Positions 11,631-32,150 of a DNA stretch of 42,301 bases are shown here, in pieces; within the stretch, counting starts at the first letter, position 1; each line of letters starts with the position of its first letter. The stretch is from NCBI GenBank assembly GCA_001312645.1, contig BBEG01000010.1, positions 1 through 42,301 on the forward strand, written 5' to 3'. Made by a program: the position numbers and the translations under genes. A model generated the notes under the pieces. The model saw nothing but the letters and a program-made list of their open reading frames with translations, made no database searches and was not told the DNA's origin. The stretch is from Rhodococcus sp. JCM 9791. GTDB taxonomy: Bacteria; Actinomycetota; Actinomycetes; Mycobacteriales; Mycobacteriaceae.

Positions 11631-12295
11631 ATGAGCCGGGCCATCGTCTTCTCCGGTCACGAGAGTGTGGGAGGAGCGTGAGCTTCCGGAGCCTGAGCCG
11701 CCCATCGGTGGCGCGGGTCGAAGCAACGGGGTGTGTCACAGCGATGTCGACCATTTTCGCGGCAACATCCATACGTCGTGGGGCGGCGCCTTCCCATCCG
11801 TACCCGGCCACGAAATCGTCGGTCGTATCGACAAGATCCGACCGGAGACGGCAGCCGAGTGGGGTGCGGCGGAGGGCGACCGAGTTGCGGTGCGCGAAGA
11901 TCGCCCCGCCGACGAGTTGACGTTCTTCGAGCCGTTGAGTTGCGCCGTCACGTAGGTGACGCCGACGCGGCAAGGTGATGTTGGCAAGATCGATTCTGCC
12001 TCGACCATGCGCTGCGCGTCGGCGACGACCACGCGCTCGACGTCGAGAACGAAGACGTCGTCGAAAGGGTCCGCGAGATCACGAACGGACAGATGGTCGA
12101 TGTCGTGATCGACGCCGCGTCGGGAAGCCGGACACGGTCAATCTGGCCATGGACCTGGTACACAACGGCGGCCATGTGGTCTTGACGGGGATGAAAGGAC
12201 GGTCCCCACTCGACCGGTTCGGCGACGCGTTCTCGCTGATGACCGAGCGCACACATGAACGACACTCCATCCGATTTGCGTTGAACCTCTACTGA
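11631..12295 (+). pseudogene. Zinc-dependent alcohol dehydrogenase (MDR) relic
   Basis: The ATG at 11631 starts MSRAIVFSGHESV, then a one-base slip leads to WEERELPEPEPP and NGVCHSDVDHFRGN (catalytic-zinc Cys) and VPGHEIVG (zinc His-Glu). After FFEPLSCAVT near 11955 the normal text jumps. What follows (VREITNGQMVDVVIDAASGS, and in another frame DTVNLAMDLVHNGGHVVLTG) belongs to the cofactor domain well downstream. The gene is about 220 codons instead of the usual 340-350, so a segment including the GxGxxG loop is missing in addition to frameshifts. This one is a true pseudogene. It is followed at 31 bases by the CMD gene. Confidence 0.7.
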
Positions 12296-12326
12296 ACACC
12301 GCCCTCCGAACGACAGGAGTCCGACC

Positions 12327-13106
12327 ATGAGCAACAACCATGCAGACGAGACCTTCCGTACCGTGCTGCACCGCGAACCCACCGAAATCCGCACCCCCTT
12401 CCAACAAGTTTCACGCGACTTCATCTTCGGCGAGATATGGTCGCGGCCCGGATTGAGCCGCAAAGACCGGCGATGGGTCGCGCTAGCCTGCGTCGCCGGC
12501 GCAGACGCTCCCGGCCCCATCGAGGCATATGTGCGCGCAGCTCTCGAGAGCGGCGACATCGAACTGGAAGAAATGCTCGAATTCGTCCTGCATTTCGCCG
12601 TGTACAGCGGGTGGCCGAAGGCATCACATCTCGAAGGCGCCGTGATGAGGCAATGGGCACAGATCCACCGCGACCGAGGTGAGGAACCCGTCCCCCTGCC
12701 CACGCTGTCGCACAACACTCTCGGCTCATCCGAATGGGACGAGCGCTTCGAGGCCGGCGCGCAGGAGTTCGCCGAGGTCAACCTAATTCCGGCGCCCCCG
12801 CACAACACGCCGTTCCGACACGCAGGCATCCTCAACTTCGTCTTCGGCCACGTATGGCAGCGACCCGGCCTGACCCGCCGCGAGCGTCGAATCATCACGG
12901 TCGCCTGCGTTTCCTACAACGACGCGATCACTCCCATGAGAAACCATGTCGGGTCCGCTCTCCATTCCGGCGACATCACCAAAGCCGAAATGGACGAGAT
13001 CGTCGTCCAATTCTCTGCCTACTACGGATTCGCGAAAGGTGAATCGCTCAACGAGGTGGTCGAAACAGCGTGGGCCGAAAGGCCCGCAGCGCTCACCCAG
13101 AAATGA
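12327..13106 (+). CDS. Tandem carboxymuconolactone-decarboxylase-family protein
   Basis: The 259-residue product has two copies of the CMD/AhpD-like fold: residues about 25-105 (FIFGEIWSRPGLSRKDRRWV, then IELEEMLEFVLHFAVYSGWP) and about 160-245 (FVFGHVWQRPGLTRRERRII, then ITKAEMDEIVVQFSAYYGFA). Neither copy shows the CxxC pair of peroxidase-type AhpD, so a decarboxylase-like or structural role is more likely. The ATG at 12327 has a CAGGAG site. It is intact and lies between the alcohol dehydrogenase relic and a substrate-binding lipoprotein in one direction, so it belongs to the + strand catabolic operon. The substrate is unknown. Confidence 0.85.
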   Translation: MSNNHADETFRTVLHREPTEIRTPFQQVSRDFIFGEIWSRPGLSRKDRRWVALACVAGADAPGPIEAYVRAALESGDIELEEMLEFVLHFAVYSGWPKASHLEGAVMRQWAQIHRDRGEEPVPLPTLSHNTLGSSEWDERFEAGAQEFAEVNLIPAPPHNTPFRHAGILNFVFGHVWQRPGLTRRERRIITVACVSYNDAITPMRNHVGSALHSGDITKAEMDEIVVQFSAYYGFAKGESLNEVVETAWAERPAALTQK

Positions 13107-13147
13107 CCTCCCATCTGTTCGAATCACCGACATTCGAAAGACCCACG

Positions 13148-14711
13148 ATGACACGACCCGAACGTGCCCTGACGATGCTCGCCGCCGTATGTTCCACAGT
13201 GCTCATCCTGAGCGCCTGCGGCGGGACATCCGATACGAGTGACTCTGCTGGCGAACCGACCACTGGAGGGACACTGAATGCCATACAGATGACCGAGCCC
13301 CGCACCCTCGATCCAGCGAACATGTCCAACAGCTGGGCGTTCCAATCACTGCTCGGCAATGCCCTGTACGGCACGCTGATGACCAATGATGTCGACTCGC
13401 TGGAGATCGACTACTCCATGGCCACCGACTTCTCCACCAGCGACGAGGGGCGGACCTTCGACCTCACTCTTCGTCCCGGCCTCACCTTCACCGACGGCAC
13501 TCCCCTCGATGCGGCAGCCGTCAAGTTCAACTGGGATCGCCTGCGCGACCCGGAACTGGGTTCGACGTCCCTCCTGCAAGCCATGCAGATCAGCACGACC
13601 GAAGTCGTCGATGACACAACCTTGAGAGCAACTCTGGACCCGCCGAATCCGCATTTCGCCCACAGTCTGGTCCAGTCGTCGATGAATTGGATCGCCTCCC
13701 CCGTGGCGCTACAGGAAGGTCGAGCAGCGTTCGACGCGGACCCCGTGGGGGCAGGCCCGTTCACACTCGTCGACTGGGCGCGGCAGGACAGGATCGATCT
13801 CACGAGGAACAGTGAATACTGGGACGCACCGAAGCCCTACCTCGACAGCATCACGCTACGAACGTCACCCGATACCAACCAACGCCTCAACGCCATGATT
13901 TCAGGCGCTGCAGATCTCGCCGCCGACTCGAGCTGGTCGACCTTTGCGCGAGCAGAGGATGCGGGACTCCACGTGGAGACCGTCCCCATGGGCGGAGGCC
14001 AGTTCATAGGATGAATATGCGGCGCGCGCCTTTCGACGACGAACGAGCCCGACGGGCGGTCGCGCTCGCCGTCGACCCTGCCACCATCAACAGCGCTGTG
14101 TACGCAGGCGCTGGTGATGATCAGGTTCCGGTACAGTCTTCCAAGACGCGTCACCGTTCTACAGCGATATCCCGTTCACCGAACCGGACAAGGAAGCTGC
14201 GCAGAGGCTGTTCGACGAGTTGGCTGCCGAGGGCAAGCCCGTGTCGTTCACTTTCGTCGGCTACTCGTCGGCCGAGAGCAAGGTGGCCGCCGAGGTACTG
14301 CAGGCGAGCCTGGCAGAATTCGACAACGTCGACGTCCGCATCCAGATTGTCGACAACACAGAAGGCGTGTCGCGGCTGACGAGTCACGACTTCGACATGA
14401 TGATCTCCTCGGCGCTGGTCCAGGATCCCGATGCTGCATTGTGGTCGGCATTCCATCCCGAGTCGTCGGGTAACTTCATGGGTGTCGACGATGCCGAGCT
14501 GACACGGGCTCTCGACGCGGGGCGAAATGCCGACACCGTAGAGGCTCGTCGTGAGGCGTACGACGTGGTGCAGGATCGGCTCGTCGGCCTGAATGTCGGA
14601 TTGTGGTACGTCCGGGGTGCGCCGTCGGTGATCGCCGCGACCGACCTACAGGGAATTCGGATGTACGGTCCAGGGTCACTCTTGCCCGAAGAGATCCAGT
14701 TCACGGAGTAG
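13148..14711 (+). pseudogene. Family 5 (peptide-type) ABC substrate-binding lipoprotein (two frameshifts)
   Basis: The ATG at 13148 starts a lipoprotein signal with lipobox LSAC (Cys24). The SBP_bac_5 body is clear: TLDPANMSNSWAFQSLLGNA, LRPGLTFTDGTPLDAAAVKF and GAGPFTLVDWARQDRIDLTR. At 14010 a missing base ends the frame (QFIG-stop); it resumes at NMRRAPFDDERARRAVALAV, and near 14140 slips again to PDKEAAQRLFDELAAEGKPV and on to EIQFTE at 14711. Repaired length is about 521 residues, normal for the family. A close paralogue on the - strand (22380-23950) confirms the frame joins. No permease or ATPase genes are in the window, so it would need partners encoded elsewhere or act as a binding or sensing protein. 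Confidence 0.85.
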
Positions 14712-14893
14712 GCTGCGCGGGTGCGACTTCGGCGTAGCGGGTTTCATCTGTTCATAGGCCGGCGGTCCGATGGGTCGGATGGATAGGTAGGACAGCTACA
14801 GTGGTGAACTGGTCAGCGTGAGGGGTGGTCGCAGCGACGCTTTGTCGATCTGGAGAGTTGCTCTTCCACTCGTATCGGTAGCGGAGGGGCCTG

Positions 14894-15546
14894 ATGAGTA
14901 CATCGCGAGAAGGCAGTAGCAAGGTGCCGAACGCGAGGCACAGGCTCATGCAGGCGACCGCTCAGGTCATGCTGGAAGAAGGATACGCCGCAGCGACATC
15001 GCGTCGCGTGGCCGCGAAGGCAGGTGTCAAGCAGGCCCTCGTCTACTACTACTTTCCCACGATGGACGACCTCTTCTTGGCGGTATTGCGCGCAGGTACT
15101 GAGGCGTTCTTGGAACGTCGGCGGGAGGCATTGGCCGATCCGGATCCGCTCCGGGCGTTGTGGCGTATCAGCTCGGAAGCTGAGACGACTGGACTGAACA
15201 CCGAGTTCATGGCCCTCGCGAACCATCGCAAAGCGATTCGTGCCGAACTCAAGGCATACAACGAGCGAGTTCGCGACATCGAAACATCGGCACTTACCGT
15301 TGCGTTGAGGCTCATGGCGTTGATCTGAACGAGTTTCCGCCGGTGGTGATATCGATGTTTCTCAGCGGTCTTGCCCGTGTCATGGTCGACGAGAATGCGA
15401 TCGGAGTGGATCTCGGTCACGAAGAGGCCCAGCGTTTCATGGACCGCCATATCGGTCGGTTCGAGTCGCTTGCTGCAGCAGCGGGTACTTCACCGGTCGA
15501 TTCAGCTTCCGACGAGGACTCGGCACATCGAGATACCGCCGGCTGA
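14894..15546 (+). pseudogene. TetR-family regulator (one frameshift)
   Basis: The ATG at 14894 follows GGAGGGGCCTG. The HTH (residues about 15-60) reads LMQATAQVMLEEGYAAATSR, then VKQALVYYYFPTMDDLFLAV. At about 15305 one base is lost: after TVALRLM the protein continues GVDLNEFPPVVISMFLSGLA and ends at the TGA at 15544-15546. Repaired length is about 217 residues. It sits between the substrate-binding gene and the SDR-ALDH-ferredoxin-P450 genes, so it may control the latter. The following 550 bases contain no gene. Confidence 0.8.
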
Positions 15547-16098
15547 CGGACGCGTAGAGGCCACTGTCTCACCGGACGCCACCCGCCGTGTCATCTCCTG
15601 CTCGCGGGCGTCGACCAGGACGTATCCGGTCGAGCGCTGCATTGACCTGCTCGACCACCTCGTGACTCGGCCACATGCCGCCCCCACAGCGGCCTACATC
15701 CGGTCCGAGTTGATCATCGCTGCGATCGTTCCACCCAACTGATCTATCGAACAAATTGTTTGGGGTATTCAATGCTCGGTCCAGCATCGAGTGTCTCACC
15801 CGGAAGACTCACGACATCTGCGGTGCCGAAACGGGGAGAACCCAGAATCTCCGGGCTATCCCAAGCCCTCGGGGCAAACAATAGAGCGTACCTTGACCGT
15901 GATCCACATCTCATGCTATTTGTATGACGTCGCCCTTCTTGATCGATCGATCAGGATTTCGTGCACGCCAGCCGCTTGCCTGAGGCACACCGGCCCGAGA
16001 AGGGATCGTGAATTCAGCATTGGGGGCGACGATCGGGCCGATCGACAGCGACTCAGCCCGAATGAACGTACAACTACGACCCTTAAGGAAATCGCCTC
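15547..16098. other. Intergenic region before the SDR operon
   Basis: No convincing gene is seen on either strand. Points of note are the A+T-rich GAACAAATTGTTTGG near 15747-15761, which contains the palindrome AACAAATTGTT with one off-centre base, and GATCGATCGATCA near 15939-15952. Either may bind the adjacent TetR protein or form part of the promoter for the downstream genes. A TAAGGA ribosome site precedes the GTG at 16099. Confidence 0.4.
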
Positions 16099-16932
16099 GT
16101 GCCCAAAGGACTTGAAGACCGCGTCGCATTCATCACCGGCGCTGCGCGTGGCCAGGGCCGCGCCCATGCCGTACGGCTCGCGCGTGAGGGTGTCGACATC
16201 ATCGGAATCGACATCTGTGAAGACATTGCATCATTGACGTACCCGAATGCCACCTCAGAAGACCTGGACGAGACCGTCCGACTGGTCGAGAAGGAAGGCC
16301 GCCGCATGGTCGGCCGAAAGGCAGATGTCAGGAAATTCGACCAGGTCCAGTCGGCCTTCCAGGACGGATACGAGCAGTTCGGTCGTGTCGACATCATCAT
16401 CGCCAATGCCGGGATCATCCGACTCGGCGAGGAATCGGACGACTTCCTGGCCGATTGGAACGACGTCATCGATACCAACCTCACCGGAGTGTTCCACACG
16501 GTTAGGGCAGCGCTTCCCGCGATGAGAGAAGCAGAACGTGGCGGCTCCATCGTGATCACCAGCTCGACCGCGGGTATCAAGGCCACAGGATCCCTGTTCG
16601 CGAGCGGCACAGCATACGCTGCAGCCAAGCGAGGTCTGGTCGGCCTCATGCAATCCTGGGCGAATTATCTCGCTCCGGAGTGGATTCGGGTCAACACCAT
16701 TCACCCGACGGGCGTCGCGAGCGGGATGACGATCAACGACGCGATGCAAGCAATGATGGAGCAGGCGGCCGCAGGAGGGAGCAACTCGATCTCGGGCATG
16801 GAGAACGCACTGCCATTGCCGATGCTCGAACCCGACGACATCGCCGGTGCCGTCGCCTTCCTGGTGTCGGACGAAGCGAAGTTCATCACGGGAACCCAGT
16901 GGGCACTCGACGCCGGATTCTGCGTTCGCTGA
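16099..16932 (+). CDS. Mycofactocin-type SDR oxidoreductase
   Basis: This is an intact 277-residue protein. The Rossmann motif is TGAARGQGRAHA (residues 13-24), followed by IIGIDICEDIASLTYP and a TSEDLDETVRLVEKEGRR insert characteristic of the carveol-dehydrogenase-like SDR subfamily whose members hold NAD(H) tightly and depend on the redox cofactor mycofactocin. The catalytic Ser is in VITSSTAG and Tyr-Lys in AYAAAKRG. It would oxidise a secondary or alicyclic alcohol; the substrate is not indicated. It leads a co-directional set with ALDH, ferredoxin and P450. Two relatives are at 20269 and 24128 (-). Mycofactocin biosynthesis genes are not in the window. Confidence 0.85.
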   Translation: MPKGLEDRVAFITGAARGQGRAHAVRLAREGVDIIGIDICEDIASLTYPNATSEDLDETVRLVEKEGRRMVGRKADVRKFDQVQSAFQDGYEQFGRVDIIIANAGIIRLGEESDDFLADWNDVIDTNLTGVFHTVRAALPAMREAERGGSIVITSSTAGIKATGSLFASGTAYAAAKRGLVGLMQSWANYLAPEWIRVNTIHPTGVASGMTINDAMQAMMEQAAAGGSNSISGMENALPLPMLEPDDIAGAVAFLVSDEAKFITGTQWALDAGFCVR

Positions 16933-16965
16933 GCACGAGTATCTGACGGAATGTCGAGGAGCATC

Positions 16966-18472
16966 ATGGTTACGACCACCGACACGCCCACCACCGGCGA
17001 CGATCGGGCCGCCAGTCTATCTCTACCTCGAGGCCTGCTCATCGGAGGTGACCAGCTCACGCAGTCCTCCGGGGGCACACACGATCACATCTATCCCGCA
17101 ACTGGCCAGATCAACGCCACAATAGCCCTGGCCGGTGCCACGGAGATCGATCAGGCAGTGACGTCAGGCTGGGAGGCGCATCGTGAGTGGATGTCCTTCA
17201 CTCCCGCACGCCGTCGCGACTTGTTGTTCGACCTTGCAGAGGCTGTGCACGCGAATCTATCGCAGTTTGCGCAACTCAACACCCACGACTACGCGGTCCC
17301 GGTCTCCTACGCCGCCACCGCACCGCTGCTCGAGGAGTTCCTGCGCCACTTCGCCGGATATGTCGACAAGCCGCACGGTGCAAGCACGCCAGTGTCGGGT
17401 TCCTTCGACGTCAATTTGATCGAGCGCGAGCCGTACGGTGTCGTCGGAGTTATCGCTCCCTGGAACGGGTCGCTGGTTGTCGCCGCAGCGTGTGTCGCGC
17501 CAGCGTTGGCGGCCGGTAACGCAGTGGTGTTGAAACCATCCGAGTTCGCACCGTTTGCCGCCCTCCGCTTCGGTGAGCTGTGCTCGGAAGTCGGCCTGCC
17601 TTCCGGGCTGGTCAACGTGGTGCCGTCGGGTCCGGACGGTGGAGCCGCCCTGGTACGTCATCCGGGAATCCGGAAGATCCACTTCACGGGTGGCACTGCC
17701 ACTGCTCGGGAAGTCCTCCGTGAGGCGGCAACGAACCTGACCCCCGTCGTCGCAGAACTCGGCGGAAAGTCGGCCGATATCGTCTTCGATGATGCGGATC
17801 TCGACCTCGCCGCTGCCATATCGGCGCACCAGGCCCCCTCATGCAATCCGGGCAGAGTTGCGCGTGCGCCAGCCGTATTCTGGTCCAGTCATCGGTGTAC
17901 GACGCCTTCGTCGACAAGTTCGTCGGGGCCATCGGTGCAGCGAATATCGGCGATCCATTCGATCCCGCAGTGTCGTTCGGTCCGGTGATCAGTGCCTCTG
18001 CCGCTGATCGAATTCTCGGCGAGATCGACAATGCTGTGTCCGAGCGTGCCGGTGAGCTCATTCTCGGAGGTAAGAGAGTCGGCAGCGACAGAATCGGTGA
18101 TCGACTTGCGGACGGGTACTACATCGAGCCCACTGTTTTCACAGAGGTCGACAACTCCTCACGTCTCGCTCGTACGGAGACGTTCGGCCCGGTTGTCTCC
18201 GTGATCAGGTTCGACACGGAGGCTGACGCGGTGCGCATCGCCAACGACACATCGTACGGATTGAACGCCTTCGTGCACACGACCGACCTCGGTCGAACCC
18301 ATCGGGTGTCCCGCAAACTCGAGGCGGGATCCGTGTGGGTCAACCATTTCAGCGACATCTCTCCCCAGGTCCCTACGGCGGATACAAGCAGAGCGGCTTC
18401 GGTCGCACCGGTGGACTCGAAGGACTCCACGAGTTCCTTCAGGTCAAGAACATTCGGATTGCCATGCGATGA
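16966..18472 (+). pseudogene. NAD(P)-dependent aldehyde dehydrogenase (two frameshifts)
   Basis: The ATG at 16966 (GAGGAG four bases upstream; an ATG at 16951 is an alternative) starts a classical ALDH: PYGVVGVIAPWNGSLVVAAA and LKPSEFAPFAALRFGELCSE, the cofactor loop FTGGTATAREVL, and the catalytic Glu in VVAELGGKSADIVF. One base is lost near 17835, after which MQSGQSCACASRILV carries the catalytic Cys. A second loss near 18370 precedes YGGYKQSGFGRTGGLEGLHE, ending IRIAMR at 18472. Repaired length is about 502 residues, normal for the family. It lies 33 bases after the SDR and 31 bases before the ferredoxin, so these form one operon. It probably oxidises an aldehyde made in the same pathway. 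Confidence 0.85.
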
Positions 18473-18503
18473 GCCGGCAGACTCCACGAGCGAAAGAAGA
18501 CCC

Positions 18504-18719
18504 ATGGTGACATCACGATTGACGGTGTCGGTCGATCCGCACATGTGCGAAGCCCACGCACTGTGCACCGAGATCGCCCCCGAGATTTTCAACCTGCCCG
18601 ATGACGGCGACATCGCGACCTGCGACGAAAACCCTTCGGAAGCTCTGCTTCCCAAGGTCCGTGCCGCCGTCGACGCATGCCCCCGCCAGGCAATCAGCGT
18701 CGCCACTCAACAGTCCTGA
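18504..18719 (+). CDS. [3Fe-4S]-type ferredoxin (CxxH variant)
   Basis: The 71-residue product starts MVTSRLTVSVDPHMCEAHAL. Cluster residues are CEAHALC (Cys, then His where a fourth Cys would be, then Cys) and VDACPRQAI with the last Cys-Pro. Such single-cluster ferredoxins deliver electrons to bacterial P450s, and this gene lies 114 bases upstream of one. The His at the variable position is a variant known among mycobacterial and rhodococcal P450 ferredoxins and may shift redox potential. The second ferredoxin of the window (32151) has Gly there. No ferredoxin reductase gene is seen nearby. Confidence 0.85.
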   Translation: MVTSRLTVSVDPHMCEAHALCTEIAPEIFNLPDDGDIATCDENPSEALLPKVRAAVDACPRQAISVATQQS

Positions 18720-18833
18720 ACGGCGAGTTCCCCTGCCCTCGACACCGGCCGATCGACACCATGGTCAGTACGCGTAGTGCCAAGCTGTCGTCGGTCACGA
18801 GATGCCCTCCCTCTTTCGAAAGGTCCACAACCC

Positions 18834-20062
18834 ATGACCGATCTCACGTCACTCGACTACTTCAGTGACGAAGCACTCGCGCAGGATCCGTCCGAGTACT
18901 TCGACCACCTCAGAAGTCGCAATCCGGTGTTTCGGGAGCCGCACTACGGCGTGGTCGTCGTCACCGGACATCGGGAGGTCACGGAGGCGTTCAGAAACTC
19001 CGAAGATCTCTCTGCCGTCAATGCGATCGGAGGGCCGTTTCCTCCGTTGCCGTTCGAGCCCGAAGGCGACGACATCTCCGAACAGATCGAAGCGCATCGG
19101 CACTTGTTCCCGATCTTCGAGCACATGGTGACAATGGATCCTCCCGACCACACACGCGCTCGCTCACTGCTGGGCCGGATGCTCACTCCGAAACGCCTGC
19201 AGGAGAACGAGCAGTACATGTGGAAGTTGGCAGATCGCCAACTCGACGAATTCATCGACAACGGCCACTGCGAGTTTCTCGGCGAGTACGCCAAACCGTT
19301 TGCCACACTCGTGATCACCGACCTGCTCGGCGTGCCCGAGCAGGATCGCGCAGAGTTCCGCAATCGACTCGCCGGCCAATCTCGTCCCAATGTCGGGTCC
19401 CTCGACCACACGCCGGTGGCCACCAACCCGCTCGAATACCTCGACGACATGTTCAGCGGCTACATCTCCGACCGCCGAAGCGAGCCCCGCGATGACATTC
19501 TCACCGGCCTCGCGACGGCGACTATCCCGACGGATCAACTCCCACGGTGAAAGAAGTGGTCCGGCCTGCCACGTTCTTGTTCGCTGCCGGCCAGGAGACG
19601 GTCACGAAACTCCTCAGCGCGGGGCTACGGACGTTGGGCGATCGCCCCGAGTTCGAGGAGAAGCTTCGCGCGGATCGGAGCCTGATCCGGCCGTTCTTGG
19701 AGGAATCTCTGCGGATGGACAGCCCGACCAAGGTCGATTTTCGACTGGCCCGCAAAACCACCACTATCGGCGATGTCGACATCCCAGCCGGGACGATCGT
19801 GATGTTGTGCCTCGGGGCAGCCAACCGGGACCCGCGTAAGTTCGAGGATCCGAACGAATTCCAGCTGGGACGCAAGAACCTCCACGATCACGTGGCGTTC
19901 GGTCGAGGTCTGCACACCTGCGCGGGCGCACCGCTCGCCCGCGTGGAGGCAAACGTGACCATGAATCGACTTCTGGACAGGACACGGAGTTTCTCGATCA
20001 GTGAGGCACACCACGGTCCTGCGGGTGACCGTCGATACACCTACGAGCCTCCTTCCTTCTGA
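18834..20062 (+). pseudogene. Cytochrome P450 (one frameshift)
   Basis: The ATG at 18834 (AAAGG ten bases upstream) starts MTDLTSLDYFSDEALAQDPS. The frame slips by one base near 19523 (TGLATAT, then PDGSTPTVKEVVRPATF). The I-helix is LFAAGQETVTKLL, the ExxR motif EESLR, and the heme loop VAFGRGLHTCAGAPLAR with the axial Cys. Repaired length is about 410 residues, typical of a soluble class I P450. I cannot assign a CYP family securely. Its ferredoxin is directly upstream, and SDR genes flank the set, so it likely hydroxylates the substrate whose alcohol the SDRs oxidise. Confidence 0.85.
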
Positions 20063-20187
20063 GGGGCCTGACCGAGCTTCACGTCGACTTCACACCGGTC
20101 GCATGACCGGCCGGACGTGCAGTACCTGATCGACCAACAGACGCAGCACCTCCGAATCTACGAACACAATTCGACAGCAAAGCTATC

Positions 20188-20212
20188 CGGTCACTCGTGC
20201 GACGAGTGACCG
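20188..20212 (+). terminator. 11-bp hairpin between P450 and SDR genes
   Basis: CGGTCACTCGT and ACGAGTGACCG form a perfect stem with a 3-base loop (GCG), 126 bases after the P450 stop and 56 bases before the next ATG. There is no T-run, so it may work as a partial terminator, an mRNA-stability element, or an operator for a dimeric repressor. Confidence 0.5.
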
Positions 20213-20268
20213 CAACGGTCATGTCACATTACGGCCGACGCCGGATGTGCGACAAGTGAGGTGGAATC

Positions 20269-21107
20269 ATGACAGGACGGGTAGAAGGAAAAGTCGCGTT
20301 CATCACGGGAGCTGCGCGGGGCCAGGGACGCAGCCACGCGGTGAAACTCGCGCAAGAGGGTGCCGACATCATCGCAATCGATATCTGCAAACCGATCAGA
20401 CCTGACGCTTCGATTGCGCCGGCGAAGCCCGACGACCTCGCGGAGACGGCGAACCTCGTCAAGGCTCTCGGCCGGCGTATCGTCACAGCGGAAGTAGACG
20501 TACGTGACTACGATGCATTGAAGGCTGAAGTCGACGCCGGCGTCGAACAGTTGGGCCGGCTCGACATCATCGTGGCGAATGCGGGATCGGCAACGGCGGT
20601 GCAACTCTGGATCGGACCGCCGAGTCCGACTGGCAGGAAATGATCGACATCAACCTCTCGGGCGTGTGGAAATCGGTCAAAGCCGGAGTACCGCACATTC
20701 TCTCGGGTGAGCAGGGCGGCTCGATCATTTTGACAAGTTCGGTGGGTGGCTTGAAGTCGCACGCGCACATGGGCCCCTACATCGCCGCCAAACACGGCGT
20801 GGTCGGGCTGATGCGTTCGTTCGCCGTGGAATTGGGGCAGCACTTCGTCCGGGTCAATTCCGTGCACCCTACGAACGTGAACTCACCGATGTTCATGCAC
20901 GAGGCGACGATGAAGATGTTCCGTCCCGACCTGGAGAATCCCGGACCGGAGGATCTCAGGGCAGCTGCACAGACAATGCACGTGCTGCCTATCGGATGGG
21001 TCGAACCCGAGGACATCAGCAACGCGGTTCTGTTCCTGGCCTCCGACGAATCTCGGTACGTCACAGGGCTCCCGCTGACCGTCGACGCGGGCAGCATGCT
21101 GAAATAG
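20269..21107 (+). pseudogene. Mycofactocin-type SDR oxidoreductase (one frameshift)
   Basis: The ATG at 20269 follows GTGAGGTGG. The Rossmann motif is [12 protein letters not shown], followed by IIAIDICKPIRP and the [18 protein letters not shown] insert of the mycofactocin-associated SDR group. A base is lost near 20585 (VANAG, then GNGGATLDRTAESDWQEMID in the next frame). Ser is in ILTSSVGG and Tyr-Lys in YIAAKHG. It ends VDAGSMLK at 21107, about 279 residues repaired. It is much closer to the - strand SDR at 24128 than to the one at 16099, sharing SVGGL, YIAAKHGV and WVEPEDIS, which points to duplication between the two arms of the cluster. Confidence 0.85.
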
Positions 21108-21251
21108 CCGGTTCGACCGAACAGCACGTCGACCGATGATTCCGTTCACCAGAGCTCATTTCGTGACGATACGACCTCCACGAGATGGAACCGGTGCCAC
21201 TTAAAATCCCGAACTATGGGGCATTTCCAGTATGAAGTGCGTGGTAGCTCG

Positions 21252-21289
21252 ATGGGGCGAGTTCTACTATCTGTTGAAACTCGCCCCAT
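21252..21289 (+). terminator. 12-bp hairpin after the SDR gene
   Basis: ATGGGGCGAGTT (21252-21263) and AACTCGCCCCAT (21278-21289) are perfectly complementary around a 14-base loop. It is the first strong structure after the SDR stop at 21107, so it is the likely end of the + strand operon, although no T-run follows. Confidence 0.55.
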
Positions 21290-22040
21290 TCCGGCGCAAG
21301 CGCCATGCCAATGCGACAACGTTCCTGCACACATCATCGCAACGCCCTGAACAGGACTCTGCCGGTTACCAATCAGTGCCGATCCGAAGCTGAGAAGACT
21401 CCGGCTTCGTTCGAAACCTGCGGTCGAGAAGCAATTCCGAGTTCTCATTGTGAGGCCGCTCTCATCCGCCACTCGCCCGCGTTGAGTATGCGACCGTCGC
21501 TGCCTTGCGTGCCTTTGCCGCCGCGTCCCATTCCCTCCGCGCACCCGCTCGTCGACGCTATCTCTTTCGCGACATGCGCGATGGCAGTGTCCGACTCCCA
21601 CTCGCCCGTGAAGCCCACACCCGGTGCGGCCTGTCGCCGATGTTCAGGGCTTCGCCGACGGAGCTCTCGCCGACGCGATCCGGCACGCTCCCGAACGCTG
21701 TCTCGATGTGTTCCCCGTCTTGCCCGCCGGTGATGATGCGTCCGCCGGCTGCTCAAGGCATTGGTGGTCAACAGGAAGAATCACGGCTACCCCTTGCCCT
21801 AGCCCATGACGACGAGACAGGTGCTCGCGTCGTCGTCGAATGTCGCGGACACCATGCAGATGTCGAAGGCGAATCCTCGGCGCAGGGCTGACCAGGCCGC
21901 CATGTGCTCGAGCCCTGGCAGGCTTCCGGCTGGCTGGCGTAACGTTTGGGCCTGTCCTGCTCATCGAAGGACGAGGAAGAGCAGTCCACGCTCCGCCTCC
22001 CGGCGCGCGCCAGGATAGCGGGTGAGATAATAAAATCAAA
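21290..22040. other. Stretch without a recognised gene
   Basis: Frames on both strands are short and arginine-rich. Fragments on the - strand read like broken protein (ALRRGFAFDICMVSATF and FGSVPDRVGESSVGEALNIG) but lie in different frames and I cannot name a family. It may be one decayed gene between the converging operons. Confidence 0.35.
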
Positions 22041-22052
22041 CGTGGGAGTGTG

Positions 22053-22300
22053 ATCATGCACGGGGCGATTCACTCTTTCGGCTGGACCATCCCGACCGTG
22101 ACGCATCCTTCGCCGTGCTCGGCGCGTTTGAGGCTGGCAGAACACTCATCGATACCGCCGATTCGTATTCAGGGTGAGTCGACGGCAACACCGGCGTCGA
22201 GTCCGAGGCTGCGATCGGCGTGGAACGCGGCGCGAGGCACCCGCATCGACGTGGTCGTCGCGACGATGATCGATCCTCGGGGCACGAATCTCGCGGGTGT
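22053..22300 (+). pseudogene. Aldo/keto reductase fragment
   Basis: Read across frames, the N-terminal part of an aldo/keto reductase is visible: FGWTIP, then RDASFAVLGAFEAG, then TLIDTADSYSG with the catalytic-site Asp-x-x-x-x-Tyr, then VDGNTGVESEAAIG and ARGTRIDVVVAT. Several one-base slips separate the pieces and the similarity stops near 22300, about 80 residues into a protein that normally has about 320. It collides tail to tail with the substrate-binding gene on the other strand. It is a true remnant. Confidence 0.55.
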
Positions 22301-22379
22301 TCCCTGCCAAGGGCTACACACCGCGGGACCCGCGTCACGCCTGTCGATGAGTGTCGGTGAATTCCGCCTCTGCTGGTTG

Positions 22380-23950
22380 TCAGCCGATCCACAGCTCTTC
22401 GGGCAAAGGCGAGGCGAGCGTATACAACTCGACGCCATGCACGTCGGCGCCATACATGACCGAAGGAACTGCACGGACGTACCAGATTCCCGGGACGGAC
22501 TCGACCAAGCGTTCCTGCACGATGTCGTAGCTTCCTTCCGCTCCTCGAAGGACTCGCTCACGCGGCCGGCGTCGAGCGCTGCATCGAGCTCAGGATCGTT
22601 GGTGCCGTTGAAGTTGCCGGGTGACTGCGAGTGCAGTGCCGTCCACAACGCGAAATCGGGATCCTGGACAATCGCGGCCGTGATGATCATGTCGAAGTCG
22701 CCGGTAACGAGCCGCGTGGTCGCAGTTGCCGCATCGAGCATCGCAACTTCCATCTCGACATTGTCGTACGCACTCAGCTGTGCCTGTACCCCTTCAGCGA
22801 GGGTCTTGGCATCCGATGTAGGGAAGGAGGTGAAGGTGAAACGAACCGGCTTGCCTTCTCCCGCCAACTCGTCGAACAGTCGCTGGGCTTCTTCGGGGTC
22901 CGACTCCTGGATAGCGATGTCACTGAAGAAGGGCGATTCTTCAGGGAAGAAGGTCTCAGGGACCTCGCCTTCACCGTTGTAGACCATTGTGTTCAGCGCA
23001 TCGAGGTCAAGCGCCAAGCTGACAGCCCGTCGGGCTCGTACATCGTCGAAGGGGGCGTGGCGGTAGTTCATTCCGATGTTCTGGCCGCCTCCGGTGGGCA
23101 CGACCTCCGTCTGGAGGCCCGCGGCTTCCGCCTGACGGATGTTGGCTACGGTCGACTCCAGCGTCAGATCGGCGGCGCCGGTGATCATCGCGTTCATTCG
23201 CTGGTTGGTGTCGTGGACGCCCTTGATCGTGAGGCTGTCGAGATATGGCTTGGGCGCGTCCCAGTAATCCGGATTCTTCACCAGCTCGACGGCATCTTGG
23301 CGGGTCCAGTCGACCAATGTGAACGGCCCGGCACCAACCGGATTCTCATCGAAGGCTTGCCGCCCCTTTTCCAACGCGGTCGGTGACGCGATCCAGTTCA
23401 GCGCGCCAGCAACGAGCGATTCCGCGAAATGCGGGTTCGGTGCCGTCATTGTGACCTTCAGATTCGTGGCATCGACGACCTCTGTATTTGCGACCTGGAC
23501 TGCTTGTCTGGTCGAGGTCGAGCCGAGGCTGGGATCGCGCAGGCGGTCCCAATTGTATTTGACGGCTTCCGCATTGAGTGGCGTGCCGTCGGTGAACATC
23601 AGGTCGGGCCGGAGCGTAAGGTTGTACGTGGACCCACCGTCGGTGGACGAGAAGTCAGTGGCCATCTTGTATTCGATCTCGAACGTCTCAGTGTCGTTGA
23701 TCATCAACGTCCCGTACAGTGCATTGCCCAATGCTGCGTGGAAGGCATAGACATTGGACATCGATGCTGGGTCCAGGGACGGAGGCTCGGCCGCCTGCAG
23801 AATCGTTGCCGAACCACCGGCCACAGGACCGCCCTCTTCGCCTCCGGGCTGGCTGCTTGCGGTGTTACCTCCGCAGGCTGCTACGAACAGGACCAGTGCG
23901 CTGCTACACAGCGCTGACACGAGCTTCGGATACGGTGTGATTCGACGCAT
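22380..23950 (-). pseudogene. Family 5 (peptide-type) ABC substrate-binding lipoprotein (one frameshift)
   Basis: The ATG at 23950 starts MRRITPYPKLVSALC with lipobox VAAC (Cys26). The body (SLDPASMSNVYAFHAALGNA, LRPDLMFTDGTPLNAEAVKY, GAGPFTLVDWTRQDAVELVK, GGGQNIGMNYRHAPFDDVRA) is that of DppA/OppA-type binding proteins. Near 22555 one base is lost after ERKEA; the repaired end reads YDIVQERLVESVPGIWYVRA and stops at the TGA at 22382-22380, about 523 residues. It is a paralogue of the + strand gene at 13148, with long identical stretches. It is the last gene of the - strand operon with the SDR and Mo-hydroxylase. No membrane or ATPase subunits are present. Confidence 0.85.
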
Positions 23951-24127
23951 GATCGACCTCTCGGATTTTGACGCACAAACGAGTCGTGTGGGTGACGGGG
24001 ACGGCGGAACGTTCTCGGTCGCTACGGACCGAGCGCAGATCGAATTACCCTGTGCCGCCGGAGAACCACAACACGACATGAGATAGGTTTCGGCCGTCGT
24101 GTCCGGGGACTCCTGCTGTGACGGCTT

Positions 24128-24963
24128 CTATCTGAGCAACGATCCAGCATCGATCGGCAGGGCAACGCCGGTGATGAAGCGAGCATCGTCGGACGCGAGA
24201 AACAATGCCGCCGCGCTGATGTCCTCCGGCTCGACCCACGGTGTCGGCAGAATCTGGCCCGTCTGAGCGACCTCGGCGAAGTCCTCCTTCGTCGGGTTCG
24301 GCAGGTCAGGCAGAAAAAGTCGGTAGGTTTCGTCATTGAGGAGCATCGGGGTGCCCACATTGGTGGGGCACAACGTGTTCACACGAATGCGCTTGTCGCC
24401 CAGTTCCAACGCCAGTGTGCGCATCAGGCCGATGACGCCGTGCTTCGCCGCGATGTAGTGACCGATATGCCGCGCGCCGCGCAAGCCGCCGACGGAACTG
24501 GTCAAGATGATCGATCCCCCTCGGCCGCCGGCCACGATATGGGGAGTGGCCACCTTCGTGGTGGTCCATACGCCGGTCAGGTTGACGTCGATCATGTCGC
24601 GCCATGCCTTCTGGGTCATTTCGTCGAGGGTCGCGCCTTCGCTGGCCAACCCGGCATTGGCCACGACGATATCGAGGCGACCGAACTTGGCGACGCCTCC
24701 CGCACAACTTCTGTCATGACGTCTTCGTCGCGCACGTCCGCTTCGACAGCGTGAATGCGCCGTCCCAACGCTTCGACCTGGTCGGCTGTTTCGGCGAGGT
24801 CGTCGGGTGTCGACATCGCGATCTTGACGCCGTCGAGTTGTTTACAGACATCTACTGCGATGATGTCGGCGCCTTCTTTGGCCATACGGACGGCGTGGCT
24901 TCGTCCTTGACCGCGGCCTGCACCGGTGATGAAGGCTACTTTTCCTTCGAGTTTTCCTGACAT
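24128..24963 (-). pseudogene. Mycofactocin-type SDR oxidoreductase (one frameshift)
   Basis: The ATG at 24963 (GAGG six bases upstream; an ATG four codons earlier is possible) starts [32 protein letters not shown] and [18 protein letters not shown] place it in the mycofactocin-associated SDR group. One base, a G in a GG run, is missing near 24700 (TEVVRE, then [20 protein letters not shown]). Ser is in ILTSSVGG and Tyr-Lys in YIAAKHG. It ends PIDAGSLLR at 24128, about 278 residues. It lies 92 bases after the CoxG-like gene and 178 before the substrate-binding gene, all in one direction. Likely role: oxidation of an alcohol made by the molybdenum hydroxylase arm or the P450s. Confidence 0.85.
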
Positions 24964-25055
24964 GTTGTGCCTCATTTCTATTCATGAGCGGCTCCGCTGA
25001 GTCGCTCGTTCCGGTCGGATGGTGCATCAGGCCGGTCAACGCGAGAATCCGAGAT

Positions 25056-25751
25056 TCAGGCAGAAGTGCGGTGACGCCACCGGACCAACAGGGGGACCAC
25101 GAATACCACCGCCGCTGCGGGGATGAGCACTCGGGTGATACGGCCACGTCGGCCGCCGATATTGAGGAGGTCTATCGGCGGTGCAGTAGCAGTGCGGCCT
25201 GCGATGGGGGTAGAGGCGTCATTGCTTGTTTTCACGTCTGCCGGCTCGGTGCCGTCCGATGGGCTCGGGCCTGCGCTCTCCGAGGCATCGATGTTCGAAG
25301 TTCCTGCAGACACAAGGATCTGTTCTGCGAGGTTGGTGGCGAACTGCCCGATGAGCTTGTTGGAGACTTCGGCGAGTGCTCCGCGTCCGAATTGCGCGGG
25401 CTTGCCGGTGATGTCGAGTTCGGTTTCGACAAAGACATCGGTACTGCCGCCCGACTCGGACATGCGACATGTGATGACCGCGCTTGCCGTACCGTTTCCG
25501 CGAGCCTCTCGACCGCTACCTTCGAAGACCACAACTTTCGCGGCTTCATCCGTGGAGCGCATTTCGATGATGCCGGCGTACTTCAACGCGATCGGGCCCA
25601 CTTTGACCTTGATGTTGCCGGAGTACTTGTCACCGTCGTGGGACGTGATGGTAGCTCCCGGAACGCAGGGAGCGACTCGTTCGATATCGAGCAATACACG
25701 CCAAGACTCGTCGATGGGGACGGCAATGCAGAAGGTATTCTCCAGTTTCAT
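25056..25751 (-). CDS. CoxG-like SRPBCC protein with C-terminal membrane anchor
   Basis: The intact 231-residue product starts MKLENTFCIAVPIDESWRVL, followed by ERVAPCVPGATI and the KVKVGPIALKYAGI strand typical of the CoxG / carbon monoxide dehydrogenase subunit G family, a lipid- or ligand-binding START-like fold (residues 1-150). A polar linker follows, then a single membrane span near the end (VLIPAAAVVFVVPLLV). CoxG anchors or assists maturation of molybdenum hydroxylases at the membrane. The ATG at 25751 has AAGGA upstream and lies 30 bases after the small Mo-hydroxylase subunit. Confidence 0.85.
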   Translation of the reverse strand: MKLENTFCIAVPIDESWRVLLDIERVAPCVPGATITSHDGDKYSGNIKVKVGPIALKYAGIIEMRSTDEAAKVVVFEGSGREARGNGTASAVITCRMSESGGSTDVFVETELDITGKPAQFGRGALAEVSNKLIGQFATNLAEQILVSAGTSNIDASESAGPSPSDGTEPADVKTSNDASTPIAGRTATAPPIDLLNIGGRRGRITRVLIPAAAVVFVVPLLVRWRHRTSA

Positions 25752-25781
25752 TCAGATCCTTGTATTGGTCGAATCAACAGT

Positions 25782-26252
25782 TCAGGCGGTGGTCGACGCG
25801 GCACGAATGGCGGCCACAATCCCTTGATAGCCGGTGCAGCGGCAGATGCTTCCGGAAATCCCGTCACGGATCTCTTCGTCCGTCGGATCGGGATTGTCCC
25901 GTAACAGTGCTGTAGCGGTGACAATGAAACCTGGTGTGCAGAAGCCACATTGGAGAGCGTGGTGTTCGCGGAAGGCTTCCTGGATGGGTGCGAGCGTGCC
26001 GTCGGGCGAGGCGATGCCCTCGACAGTGGTGATGCAGGTGCCGTCGGCCTGAACTGCGAAGACAAGACATGCCCGTACGGCCTCACCGTCCATCAAGACC
26101 GTGCACGCGCCACAGACTCCGTGTTCGCAACCCAGGTGGGTCCCGGTCAATCCACAGTTGACCCGTAAGAAGTCGGCCAGCGTCAGCCGCGGCGGGACGG
26201 ACGAGCGCCTCACTGTGCCGTTGACCTCGATCGTAATCTCGACATCAGTCAT
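25782..26252 (-). CDS. Molybdenum hydroxylase 2Fe-2S subunit (CoxS-like)
   Basis: The intact 156-residue protein starts MTDVEITIEVNGTVRRSSVP. Plant-type 2Fe-2S ligands are visible in GCEHGVCGACTVLMDG and C-terminal-domain ligands in LQCGFCTPGFI and GSICRCTGYQGI. It passes electrons from the Mo site to FAD. The ATG at 26252 has an excellent GAGGAGG site and overlaps the end of the FAD subunit gene, so translation is coupled. Family is certain; the substrate of the complex is not. Confidence 0.9.
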   Translation of the reverse strand: MTDVEITIEVNGTVRRSSVPPRLTLADFLRVNCGLTGTHLGCEHGVCGACTVLMDGEAVRACLVFAVQADGTCITTVEGIASPDGTLAPIQEAFREHHALQCGFCTPGFIVTATALLRDNPDPTDEEIRDGISGSICRCTGYQGIVAAIRAASTTA

Positions 26253-27116
26253 CGATTGCCTCCTCAAGAGCGCTCTTCAGGCGCGCGACACCATCGTTGC
26301 GCCGACGCGTGTGCGGTACGCAGCGGAACCGTGCAGGTCGGCCGGAACCGACTCCAGGTCGGACACCGCGACGTGGCCGACGTCGCGCACCTGCAGTTCG
26401 TCGATCGAGCAACCGACGAGGGAGCGCTCCGTCGAGGTTGCCCGCATCGGTATCGACCCCAGGCCGAAGAGTCCTATGCTGCAGCGTTCGACTCGTGAAT
26501 TGTCGTCGATCTTCACCGCTACGCAGGCTCCTGCCATGGCGAAGTCGCCTTTGCGGCGCGAGAATTCATTGATTGCGAACCCGCTTCGGCTTCCCGGACA
26601 GAAGGTGACCTTTGTGAGAATTTCGTCGTCGCGTAAGGCCGTGGTCCACATCCCAGTGAAGAACTCGGAAGCCGGTATGGTTCGTCGGCCGGTGGAGGAC
26701 AGTGCCTCGAGTTCGGCATCGAGGCTCAACACCACCGCAGGGTATTCCGCAGCGGCGTCAGCGTGAGCAACGGAACCACCGAGCGTGCCGCGATTGCGGA
26801 TCGGGAAGTGTCCGATCAACGGGGTGGCTCGGGAGAGTAACGGTACTGACTCGAGGACGGTGGTAGACCTGCCGACTGTTGCCTGGTTCGTGGTGGCACC
26901 GATCGCGACGGAGTCCGAATCATGCGTTATTCCGGAAAGACCAGTGAGTTGTCTGATATCGATCAAGTGCTCGAACGCGGCCAATCGAAGGTTGAGCATC
27001 GGCATCAAGCTCTGACCACCGGCGATGAGCTTGGCGTCGTCTCCGAACTCTGCCAGGAGTTCGGCAGCCTCCTCTGGTGTGGCGGGCCGATGGTATTCGA
27101 ACGCCGAAGGTTTCAT
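26246..27116 (-). pseudogene. Molybdenum hydroxylase FAD subunit (CoxM-like; frameshift at the last codons)
   Basis: The ATG at 27116 overlaps the stop of the large subunit gene (ATGA). MKPSAFEYHRPATPEEAAEL, then KLIAGGQSLMPMLNLRLAAF and RNRGTLGGSVAHADAAAEYP are the FAD-binding motifs of this family. The frame as given stops at 26277 (MVSRA). Restoring one C there continues LKSALEEAIDD to a stop overlapping the next ATG at 26252, so the loss is only about 11 residues and may not matter to function. About 289 residues repaired. It completes the L-M-S gene order. Confidence 0.85.
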
Positions 27117-29452
27117 GTGGTCACCGCCTCGGCGCGGGCGGAATCGAGCATGCCGATGATCGTGGCAGGGCTCAACGGCAGGTGATCGACCTCGACGCCG
27201 AACGGCGCCAACGCATCGACGACAGCATTGACCACCGCAGGTGCCGAGCCGATCGCTCCACCTTCGCCTACACCCTTGTAGCCGCCGGGGCGGACCGGGG
27301 GTTTCGATATGGCCCAATTCGATCACCGGGGCCTCATTGGCAGTGGGGAGTAGATAGTCCATGAAAGTTGTGGTGATCGGGTTTCCGGCGTCGTCGTAGG
27401 CAAGATGCTCGTAGAGGGCACCACCTATGCCCTGGACCGTACCGCCGTAGATCTGTCCTTCGACCACGTTCGGATTGATCATGGGGCCACAATCATCACT
27501 TACTATGTAGCGCAACAGTGTTACCTCACCGGTTTCGATGTCGACCTCGCATGTGCACACGTGGGTCGCGTTGGCCCAGATCAGCGGACTCTCTGCCCGG
27601 TATCGTTCGCTGACCTCCAGGCCGAAGGTAAGGCCCGGCGGGAGTGTCTGGGCTTGGAAGTATGCGATGTCGGCAATCTCGCGAGGCTCAACTCCCTGTT
27701 CGGTACACCGCGAACGGTGGCCCGACCGCGCGAGAACTCGACATCGTCGGTGTCGACTTCGAACGTGTGCGCGGCGAGTGCGAGAATCCGTTGCCGAAGG
27801 ATCGCCGCGGCCTGCGCCACAGCGCCGGCGGTCATCGACGCGGATCGGCTACCGCCGGTTCCGGCGCCGAAGGGTGTGATCGCAGTGTCGCCCTGGACTG
27901 TGTTGACGTCCCCGATCTCGACACCGAGCGCGTCGGCGGTCAGCTGGACCACGGTGGTCTCCAAGCTGTTTCCGCAGGATCCACCGGCAACGTAGACGTT
28001 GACCTTGCCGGACGGCTCGATGCGAATGGTGGCACCCTCGGTGCCGTGGAATGCCGTCACGCCCGTAGTGGGTTCGAGGTACGTGCATGTACCCACACCG
28101 ATATATCGACCGTCCAGGCGAGCGAGGTGCTGTTCGCGGCGAAACGCGGGGTAGTCGAGGATCTCGAGTGCCTGCTCGAATGTCTCCCGCGGTGTGACGT
28201 CCGAGTAGGGCATACCGTTGGGGTTCGATACCGGCAGTTCGTCGACTCGCAGCAGATTTCTCCTGCGCAGTTCGATCGGATCGATGCCGAGGCGCCGTGC
28301 CGCGGTGTCGAGTGCCACTTCTCGGGCCATCGATTCGAATTGCCAGGGTCCGCGATAGGCTCCTCGTCCAACTGTGTTGGAGTACACCAACTTCGTTCTG
28401 AAGGTGGCGGCAGGAACCCGGTACGGCCCCGGGAACAGCATTCCGACAACCCCGCCTGCGGTCATCGGAGGTGTGACCGGGTAGGCGCCCACGTTCTGTA
28501 CATACTCGAGGTCGGCGGCAAGGAGCATTCCGTCGGCGTCGAACGCGAAGCGCCCAGTCCCATGTTCCTCGCGGGCCATTCCCGCAGACATCAGATGCTC
28601 TTGCCGATCTTCGATCCACTTGAGTGTGGCCCCGGCCTTCCTGGCGGCCAGCATGACGCAGATCTCCTCGCGTTGCGGCACTACCTTCTGCCCGAATCCA
28701 CCTCCTGTGTCCTTCACGATCACCCGCACTCGATGCTCATCGATTCCGAGGACTCGTGCGCACACCATCCGCACCTCGTGTGGCGATTGGGTGGACGTCC
28801 AGACTGTCATGTCGCCCGCTGCTGCCGACCATTCCGCGACCACTCCTCGGGTTTCCATCGGCATGGGCATGTGGGCCTGCTGGTGCACTGTCTGATCGAC
28901 GACATGCGCGGCACTATCGAAGATGGGCTTCAACTCCGACAATGGTCTACCGGAGAGTTCACCCGCCAGATTGCATGGCGCATACGAGTGCACGAGTTCA
29001 GTGTTCTCATAGGCCGTTTCGTAATCGACCACCGGAGTCAGCGGCTCGTACTCGATGAGGACCCGCTCGGCCGCATCCTCCGCCACATAGCGATCGGTGG
29101 CGATGATGAGTGCGACCGGATCTCCGACGAACCGGACCTCGTCCTCCGCGAGTGGTACACGGACCAGGCGATCGGCGACACGCTCTGCTGTGTACCTGAA
29201 CTCGTGGACGCCGGAATTCAGGTCTGCAGCGAGATAGATCGCGGTGACGCCATCGACCGCGAGCGCTTCCGATGTGTCGATATCGAGAATTCGTGCGCGA
29301 GCGTAGGGGCTGCGCACGAAACAGGCATGTAGCATGCCGGGTCTAACGATGTCGTCAACGAAAGTTCCTGAGCCGGTGAGTAACCGAGCGTCTTCGACCC
29401 GAGGAACGCGGGTGCCGACCGAGTTGCCCGTTTCCTTCTCGGTAGTGGTCAT
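27113..29452 (-). pseudogene. Molybdenum hydroxylase large subunit (xanthine dehydrogenase/CoxL-like; two shifts)
   Basis: The ATG at 29452 starts MTTTEKETGNSVGTRVPRVE. Mo-cofactor motifs are GGGFGQK (residues about 250), AYRGPWQFESMARE and GVGEGGAIGSAP with the catalytic Glu near the C-terminus. The active-site loop is AYRGPW, not the AYRCSFR of true CO dehydrogenase, so a hydroxylase of an organic substrate is meant. Near 27712 one base is missing (TVRGV, then VEPREIADIAYFQAQTLPPG). Near 27303 one extra base appears (ETPGPP, then GYKGVGEGG). Repaired length is about 780 residues, normal for the family. First gene of the - strand operon; the stop overlaps the FAD subunit start. Confidence 0.88.
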
Positions 29453-29944: not shown

Positions 29945-30010
29945 CCGGGCGCAGCTGCCGCGGCGCCGAATTCATCGTGCGGAGTTACCTCGCGGAGGAG
30001 GTGGTGCGCG

Positions 30011-32017: not shown

Positions 32018-32150
32018 GTGCCCACCACCTTCCAACTTTTCTCAGACAGGCATCTGACTTATGTTGTACCGTACTCGTGAGGCGCATCACATGACAATGG
32101 TTCTCACCGATCAATTTGCGTCAATTCGAACGACTACAAGGAGATACCCA

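Follow-up and report, generated by a model that had tools for sequence, protein, structure and literature searches.

Contig C10 of Rhodococcus sp. JCM 9791 (GenBank BBEG01000010.1), which in its whole length of 42,301 bases forms the window analyzed here, carries a gene island of ~21,600 bases made up of three blocks (A, B, and C) in two converging arms. We read it as a set of catabolic genes devoted to a single alicyclic compound, probably resembling a terpenoid or steroid, or to a few such compounds, with a probability of about 0.54, because parts of both arms also sit together in other genomes. A preliminary description of this DNA had recognized two converging operons with paralogous parts and proposed from them a mycofactocin-dependent pathway for alicyclic or terpenoid compounds. 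The observation holds and the pathway interpretation stands in part; the substrate class is what we infer.

Genes were identified by Pfam and NCBIfam model searches on the open pieces, with frame breaks left unmended (Table 1). Block A (10.80 to 14.71 kb) has a gene for a TetR regulator, TetR0, on the − strand, followed on the + strand by the remnant of a zinc alcohol dehydrogenase (ADH), a tandem protein of the carboxymuconolactone decarboxylase (CMD) family, and a family 5 substrate-binding lipoprotein (SBP1). Block B (14.72 to 21.11 kb, + strand) encodes TetR1, a short-chain dehydrogenase/reductase (SDR1), an aldehyde dehydrogenase (ALDH), a ferredoxin, a cytochrome P450 (P450a), and SDR2. 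Block C (22.36 to 32.36 kb, − strand) encodes, in reading order, TetR2, P450b, the large, FAD, and small subunits of a molybdenum (Mo) hydroxylase (coxL-M-S), coxG, SDR3, and SBP2. By Pfam, all genes named in the preliminary description are present on the strands given there, and a perfect inverted repeat of 12 bp lies between the two converging arms. Its borders (11.6 to 29.5 kb) were too narrow, since TetR0 had been missed and the − arm runs on with P450b and TetR2; the + arm, taken as one operon, is two units, of which block A starts with the divergent TetR0 and the ADH remnant. The same genome holds second copies of block A (contig C7) and block C (contig C15), as well as a third coxLMS locus (contig C169) with a mycofactocin-type SDR gene after coxS. 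Block A aligns with C7 at 85 to 87% identity in three pieces (10,802 to 14,711), and block C aligns with C15 in one piece (22,376 to 32,360; 86.2% over 10,058 bp).

A genome-collection scan with CoxL gave 278 loci, and the neighborhoods of the best 80 were compared; contig ends truncate some of these loci, and many are closely related. Within 8 kb of coxLMS, 31 of the 80 hold an SDR resembling the mycofactocin-type model TIGR03971, 30 hold any P450, and 22 hold both; CoxG is present in 60, a CYP150-like P450 in 8, and ALDH in 6. These counts include self matches of the queries for ALDH (the intact gene from Williamsia locus L032), LivK (L032), GH78 (L086), and the P450a homologue (L070), where L numbers denote fetched loci. 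The 31 SDR-bearing loci span nine genus labels (7/7 Streptomyces, 6/6 Actinomadura, 9/43 Nocardia, and 3/9 Rhodococcus among them); a rough chance figure, from the density of 19 over-cut-off genes in two genomes (11.1 Mb), would be ~2.6 of 80. A P450 accompanies 22 of the 31 loci with the SDR vs. 8 of the 49 without it (Fisher p = 1.1e-6). In a set of nine CoxL stretches, seven of them already among the 80, the SDR is found in three (L152, L155, and L156) and in none of the other six. CoxL of the window's kind occurs in 10 of 18 genomes of the genus, our own included (E ≤ 1e-180).

Over the whole stretches, CMD is present in 7 of the 80 CoxL loci: on a converging arm in three (Streptomyces L035 and L041, Nocardia L029), in the same direction as CoxL in three (L032, L043, and L070), and diverging in one (L086). 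Genes of both arms do cluster in other actinobacteria, in which the preliminary description had suggested seeking the gene set. Streptomyces L041 is closest in layout; its coxL-M-S-G, SDR, P450, and ferredoxin genes run head-on into CMD-ALDH-SDR-SDR-TetR with ~110 bases between them (SDR 65 to 73% identical to SDR3, CMD 68%, ALDH 43%, and one SDR 33% to SDR1). Closest in content is Williamsia faeni L032, a record that carries an UNVERIFIED_CONTAM flag. It has, in one direction, CMD (60%), SDR1 (77%), ALDH, a LivK-type binding protein, coxL-M-S, and coxG, with TetR0, SDR2, TetR1, P450a, and ferredoxin just upstream of CMD. The window itself has a broken LivK-type gene outside the island (39082 to 39653, − strand); over 147 residues it is 41% identical to its counterpart ahead of coxL in L032.

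Several observations weigh against a single pathway. Within 8 kb of coxLMS, CMD occurs in only 5 of the 80 loci and an SBP of this family in 1; the SDR-P450 link is not upheld after tree pairing (median p = 0.22, 9 pairs); the converging Streptomyces loci L035 and L041 are kin, and the SDRs of their CMD arm are only 33 to 35% like SDR1. The exact gene order was found in no other fetched locus looked through. The stretches of Rhodococcus sp. CH91 and of C15 hold block C without A or B genes beside it (a TetR1-like piece lies ~21 kb from block C in C15), and the C7 stretch holds block A without B. The Pfam searches of the blocks revealed no gene for ring cleavage. Finally, many island genes contain frame breaks and the ADH is damaged, so part of the island is possibly non-functional. 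The breaks may be sequencing errors, because the source assembly (6.34 Mb, 1.5% contamination) is in 947 contigs and 76% complete, and they look like such errors because alignments of the window to related copies show many one-base gaps on both sides, though decay may also explain them.

TIGR03971 is the best NCBIfam model for SDR1, SDR2, and SDR3, in agreement with the related mycofactocin-type SDRs proposed earlier for the two arms; the pieces of SDR2 (213.8 and 157.6 bits) and SDR3 (252.6 and 130.1 bits) each score below the cut-off of 300. SDR1 and intact homologues of SDR2 and SDR3 share an insertion of ~20 residues that follows the second strand, near the NAD site, and is lacking from two plain SDRs; they also keep the Ser, Tyr, and Lys residues. 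Seven of ten PDB matches of SDR1 are named carveol dehydrogenase, and the passages seen of two papers describe such SDRs as holding a non-exchanging NAD (PMC5264612, PMC3023750). The mycofactocin dependence put forward in the preliminary description accords with the genome, in which one contig carries MftR, MftB, MftC (two pieces), and MftD; MftR, MftB, and MftD score over their cut-offs, as does the longer piece of MftC with TIGR03962. The genome has at least 8 TIGR03971 genes over cut-off and several broken ones (150 of 271 candidates scored).

By its domains (molybdenum cofactor, FAD, and 2× 2Fe-2S in L, M, and S) the Mo enzyme is a member of the xanthine oxidase family. The large subunit of the CH91 homologue has its best PDB match in quinoline 2-oxidoreductase (495.8 bits), followed by CO dehydrogenase (468.3 bits) and 6-hydroxypseudooxynicotine dehydrogenase (381.9 bits); the first two have the same three-subunit build as the enzyme in the window. 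Five intact large-subunit homologues contain GVGEGG. They read AYRGPWQ, and the window subunit AYRGPWQFE, where CO dehydrogenase has CSFR (ACSFR in the 8uem alignment), which we take to be the active-site motif of its large subunit. As CSFR is absent and the scores lie below the CO dehydrogenase cut-offs, the Mo enzyme is not an aerobic CO dehydrogenase. L, M, and S each have glyceraldehyde dehydrogenase as their best NCBIfam model, with scores under the cut-offs (L as an incomplete piece), so the family does not fix the substrate.

The remaining enzymes are assigned with differing precision. P450a, a split gene, is 60% identical over its first 238 residues to an intact P450 in L070, and it is through this homologue that its likeness to CYP150A6 (PDB 6dcd) appears (694.5 bits over nearly the whole length). 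CYP150A5, a sister enzyme of CYP150A6, is reportedly a binder of terpenoids. P450b has PDB matches to 8z9s (511.2 bits), for which no naming paper was found in the open-access literature, and to CYP105AS1 (329.3 bits); its CH91 homologue is 94% identical. The CMD protein is neither the 4-carboxymuconolactone decarboxylase PcaC (TIGR02425, 84.2 bits vs. a cut-off of 155.7) nor an AhpD-type peroxidase, for which the CxxC pair was not seen by eye. Stretches of the C7 dehydrogenase are absent from the ADH remnant in the alignment blocks; the C7 copy matches both PF08240 and PF00107 and was rejected as a mycofactocin-type zinc alcohol dehydrogenase (TIGR03989, 84.4 bits vs. a cut-off of 440).

Table 1. 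Features of the island in window coordinates, with the models or comparisons that identify them
Feature	Position	Strand	Basis and remarks
TetR0, TetR regulator divergent from block A	10803..11483	-	PF00440; copy on own contig C7 (L131) 88%
Zn alcohol dehydrogenase remnant	11635..12290	+	PF08240 on 11635-11952; internally shorter than C7 copy
Tandem CMD-family protein	12327..13106	+	PF02627, two stretches
SBP1, family 5 substrate-binding lipoprotein	13148..14711	+	PF00496, both pieces; frame break near 14.0 kb
TetR1	14894..15543	+	PF00440 on first piece; second piece read by eye; frame break
SDR1, mycofactocin-coupled	16102..16932	+	TIGR03971 355.9 bits, cut-off 300
ALDH	16951..18470	+	PF00171, both pieces; frame break near 17.85 kb
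Single-cluster ferredoxin	18504..18719	+	PF13370/PF13459
P450a, CYP150-like	18834..20062	+	PF00067 on C-terminal piece; frame break near 19.5 kb
SDR2, mycofactocin-coupled	20269..21107	+	TIGR03971 best model, both pieces; frame break near 20.6 kb
Perfect 12-bp inverted repeat between converging arms, candidate two-way terminator	21252..21289		
SBP2, family 5 substrate-binding lipoprotein	22376..23953	-	PF00496 243.6 bits; frame break near 22.5 kb
SDR3, mycofactocin-coupled	24131..24975	-	TIGR03971 best model, both pieces; frame break near 24.7 kb
CoxG-family protein	25059..25751	-	PF06240
Mo-hydroxylase small subunit (S, 2x 2Fe-2S)	25785..26267	-	PF01799, PF00111 (Fer2_2, Fer2)
Mo-hydroxylase FAD subunit (M)	26280..27122	-	PF00941 (FAD_binding_5), PF03450
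Mo-hydroxylase large subunit (L)	27123..29452	-	PF01315, PF02738, PF20256; MoCoBD_1/2 domains; frame break near 27.7 kb
P450b, CYP105-like by PDB neighbors	30011..31258	-	PF00067; start codon uncertain
TetR2	31400..32041	-	PF00440; 65% in CH91; frame break
Palindrome CCGGNNNGTGC-N5-GCACNNNCCGG upstream of TetR2, candidate operator of block C	32186..32216		

In the working that we propose, SBP1 and SBP2 would capture the compound on the outer side of the membrane and deliver it to an importer of the Opp type whose genes lie elsewhere. As their family suggests, P450b and the pair of P450a and ferredoxin would hydroxylate unactivated carbons; SDR1 to SDR3 would oxidize the resulting alcohols, their bound NAD being recharged by mycofactocin as expected for this family; and ALDH would convert aldehyde to acid. 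CoxLMS, matured or anchored with CoxG, could place water-derived oxygen onto an aldehyde or an activated ring carbon, and we would guess a later decarboxylation, isomerization, or hydrolysis for the CMD protein. Each block would be governed by one TetR regulator.

One pathway appears more probable than chance company, in which two or three independent units with different substrates would have been joined by insertion sequences (IS) in a mobile catabolic region. We regard such a joining as unlikely. Blocks A and C do stand apart elsewhere in this genome (C7 and C15), every block has its own TetR gene, and IS3-type elements flank the region; against this, genes of A/B and C occur together in Williamsia, Nocardia, Blastococcus, and Streptomyces, converge in three loci, and the flanking elements are not copies of each other. 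Since these two IS3-type elements differ, a composite transposon is not shown.

Two other pathways that would use the same genes differently have less in their favor. With quinoline 2-oxidoreductase the closest solved structure to the CH91 large subunit, the Mo hydroxylase could act on a heteroaromatic or alkaloid ring while the P450s and SDRs treat its side chains; the sub-cut-off glyceraldehyde dehydrogenase match of all three subunits and the failure to find an amine or ring-nitrogen gene in the blocks make an N-heterocycle pathway decidedly unlikely. Detoxification or tailoring of a toxic plant or microbial compound, without growth, seems to us the least probable: it would fit the failure to find a CoA ligase, thiolase, or ring-cleavage gene inside the blocks, and the kinase-like gene that follows at 32514, yet binding proteins and ALDH suit uptake and catabolism, and CoA ligase, MaoC, or acyl-CoA dehydrogenase genes are annotated near related clusters elsewhere.

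The binding proteins are related, as the preliminary description held (SBP2 is 59% identical to the N-terminal piece of SBP1), but their duplication, which it took as distinctive, is nothing unusual, since SBPs of the family occur in 13 of 17 relatives from the same genus. Of 101 genomes searched, our own included, 39 have relatives of SBP2 (E ≤ 1e-30), and our own has at least 12; several family 5 SBPs are, by these counts, normal for the genus. They often lack a permease: of nine SBPs at least 50% identical to SBP2 in two genomes (G005 and G007), three have a PF00528 permease within 6 kb and six have none within 10 kb. Across the window, the C7 stretch, and ten own-genome stretches (L108 to L117), the Opp permease of L125 has homologues at two sites, one on C2 and one on C61; none of L125 OppBCDF was found in the window, C15, or C7 stretches, where more distant permeases were not sought. 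We hypothesize that the binding proteins share one importer. A conserved Rhodococcus cluster (L122, L125, L126, and own contig C2) combines OppBCDF and an SBP of the family with CoA transferase, TauD-like, ALDH, and mycofactocin-type SDR genes. A plasmid search with SBP2 (E ≤ 1e-60) gave two records; one with CoxL (E ≤ 1e-150) gave none.

The evidence suggests a terpenoid- or steroid-like substrate, perhaps of plant origin and perhaps the aglycone of a glycoside. Glycoside hydrolase (GH) genes accompany related clusters: GH78 and GH106 in Blastococcus L086; GH78, GH2, and GH1 in Streptomyces L041; and GH78 in Nocardia L029. Five of the 80 CoxL loci have GH78 within 11 kb, and three of these belong to the five loci that have CMD within 8 kb (Fisher p = 0.001; tree pairing, 4 independent pairs, median p = 0.5), a test that is not independent because the pattern was first noticed in these same loci. 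The idea of an aglycone arises because these families match enzymes of steroid-type saponin catabolism in Sphingobium sp. RC1, for which the part of the source seen gives GH78, GH106, and GH39 (PMC10653915); its main text lacks the words carboxymuconolactone, P450, and aldehyde dehydrogenase. On a Sphingobium yanoikuyae plasmid, 11 kb hold ALDH, CMD, SDRs, P450 (46% to the CYP150-like query), TetR, and a [2Fe-2S] protein, with GH39 and GH2 after the cluster. Counting against the idea, PF17389, a rhamnosidase family seen beside related clusters, has no match in our own 76%-complete genome, and GH78, GH2, and GH1 queries have none in 17 CMD-centered stretches (L134 to L150, two of them the same records as L035 and L086). 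The glycoside is a weak lead. A broader proposal, which we consider improbable, is that a cross-phylum gene set (CMD, SDR, ALDH, and CYP150-like P450, with a Qor-like Mo hydroxylase in actinobacteria) breaks down the aglycone part of plant terpenoid or steroid glycosides; alcohol oxidations would in actinobacteria be drained via mycofactocin, and many permease-less binding lipoproteins would share one Opp importer.

CMD is found in 27 of 394 and 27 of 397 genomes (E ≤ 1e-40, our own counted) and adjoins an SDR1-like gene in L145 to L150 (L146 being the L086 record). CYP150-like P450s occur in 31 of 151 genomes of the family (E ≤ 1e-90), and one adjoins a TIGR03971 SDR in both G005 (C2:4169093-4171270) and G007 (C1:635401-637580). 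Two stretches from 8- to 11-Mb genomes of another family (L135, 5218 to 14071; L139, 883 to 5549) place a zinc ADH and CMD with genes that by eye resemble CysD, CysN, and CysQ, and L135 adds a sulfotransferase and an alkyl-sulfatase-like protein, which raises the question of a sulfated intermediate in these clusters.

Block C aligns with Rhodococcus sp. CH91 in one piece (22,364 to 32,352; 82.5% over 10,060 bp), and the CCGGNNNGTGC-N5-GCACNNNCCGG palindrome stands upstream of TetR2 in the window, C15, and CH91, with one, three, and two mismatches, respectively, to a pattern derived from these same copies. An exact match to its core was found in 3 of the 160 loci that were fetched, namely L108 and the two records L028 and L118, both of which cover one and the same stretch of CH91. 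This conserved palindrome is probably the operator of block C. A search for inverted repeats gave none for the TetR0 spacer or the DNA ahead of TetR1 and five short ones between TetR1 and SDR1. Adjoining block C, outside its conserved part, a kinase-like protein with EcKL (ecdysteroid kinase-like) and APH matches is encoded at 32514 to 33659 (+ strand).

The enzyme kinds are known and their combination is new. In line with the preliminary description, no named pathway matched: an identical cluster was not found in the open-access literature, judged by titles and abstract openings and exclusive of subscription papers. Carveol dehydrogenase of Rhodococcus erythropolis DCL14 and mycobacterial TIGR03971 SDRs share with SDR1 to SDR3 the subfamily, the mycofactocin link, and presumably the bound NAD and the oxidation of an alicyclic alcohol; no operon with P450, Mo hydroxylase, or CMD is described in the passages seen of these papers (PMC3023750, PMC5264612), and the text of the first does not contain "P450" or "molybd". 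Mycobacterium branderi plasmid NZ_AP022607 has a CYP150-like P450 near annotated mycofactocin-coupled SDRs, phosphotransferase, and GntR genes; it differs in that coxLMS and CMD are not annotated in the stretch shown, whose gene table is incomplete. Rhodococcus and Mycobacterium have large families of mycofactocin-coupled SDRs, of which few have a known substrate, and the island links three of them to two P450s, a Mo hydroxylase, and a CMD protein. With a version of block C in the sequenced strain CH91 and a candidate operator, a substrate screen becomes possible, and it would give this Mo-hydroxylase subfamily a function.

Outside the island, tRNA and Rfam scans of the window returned two ALIL elements of IS3 type and nothing else. 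One belongs to an IS3-type transposase gene (7755 to 9073, + strand) and the other to a second, different IS3-type remnant (34039 to 34792, + strand); a DDE_5 transposase lies at 3 to 767. A frame at 41123 to 42238 (+ strand) joins FAA-hydrolase and alpha/beta-hydrolase domains, and its third-position GC is 0.93 vs. 0.72 to 0.80 in the other listed frames; by this measure, the contig end there may be of other origin.

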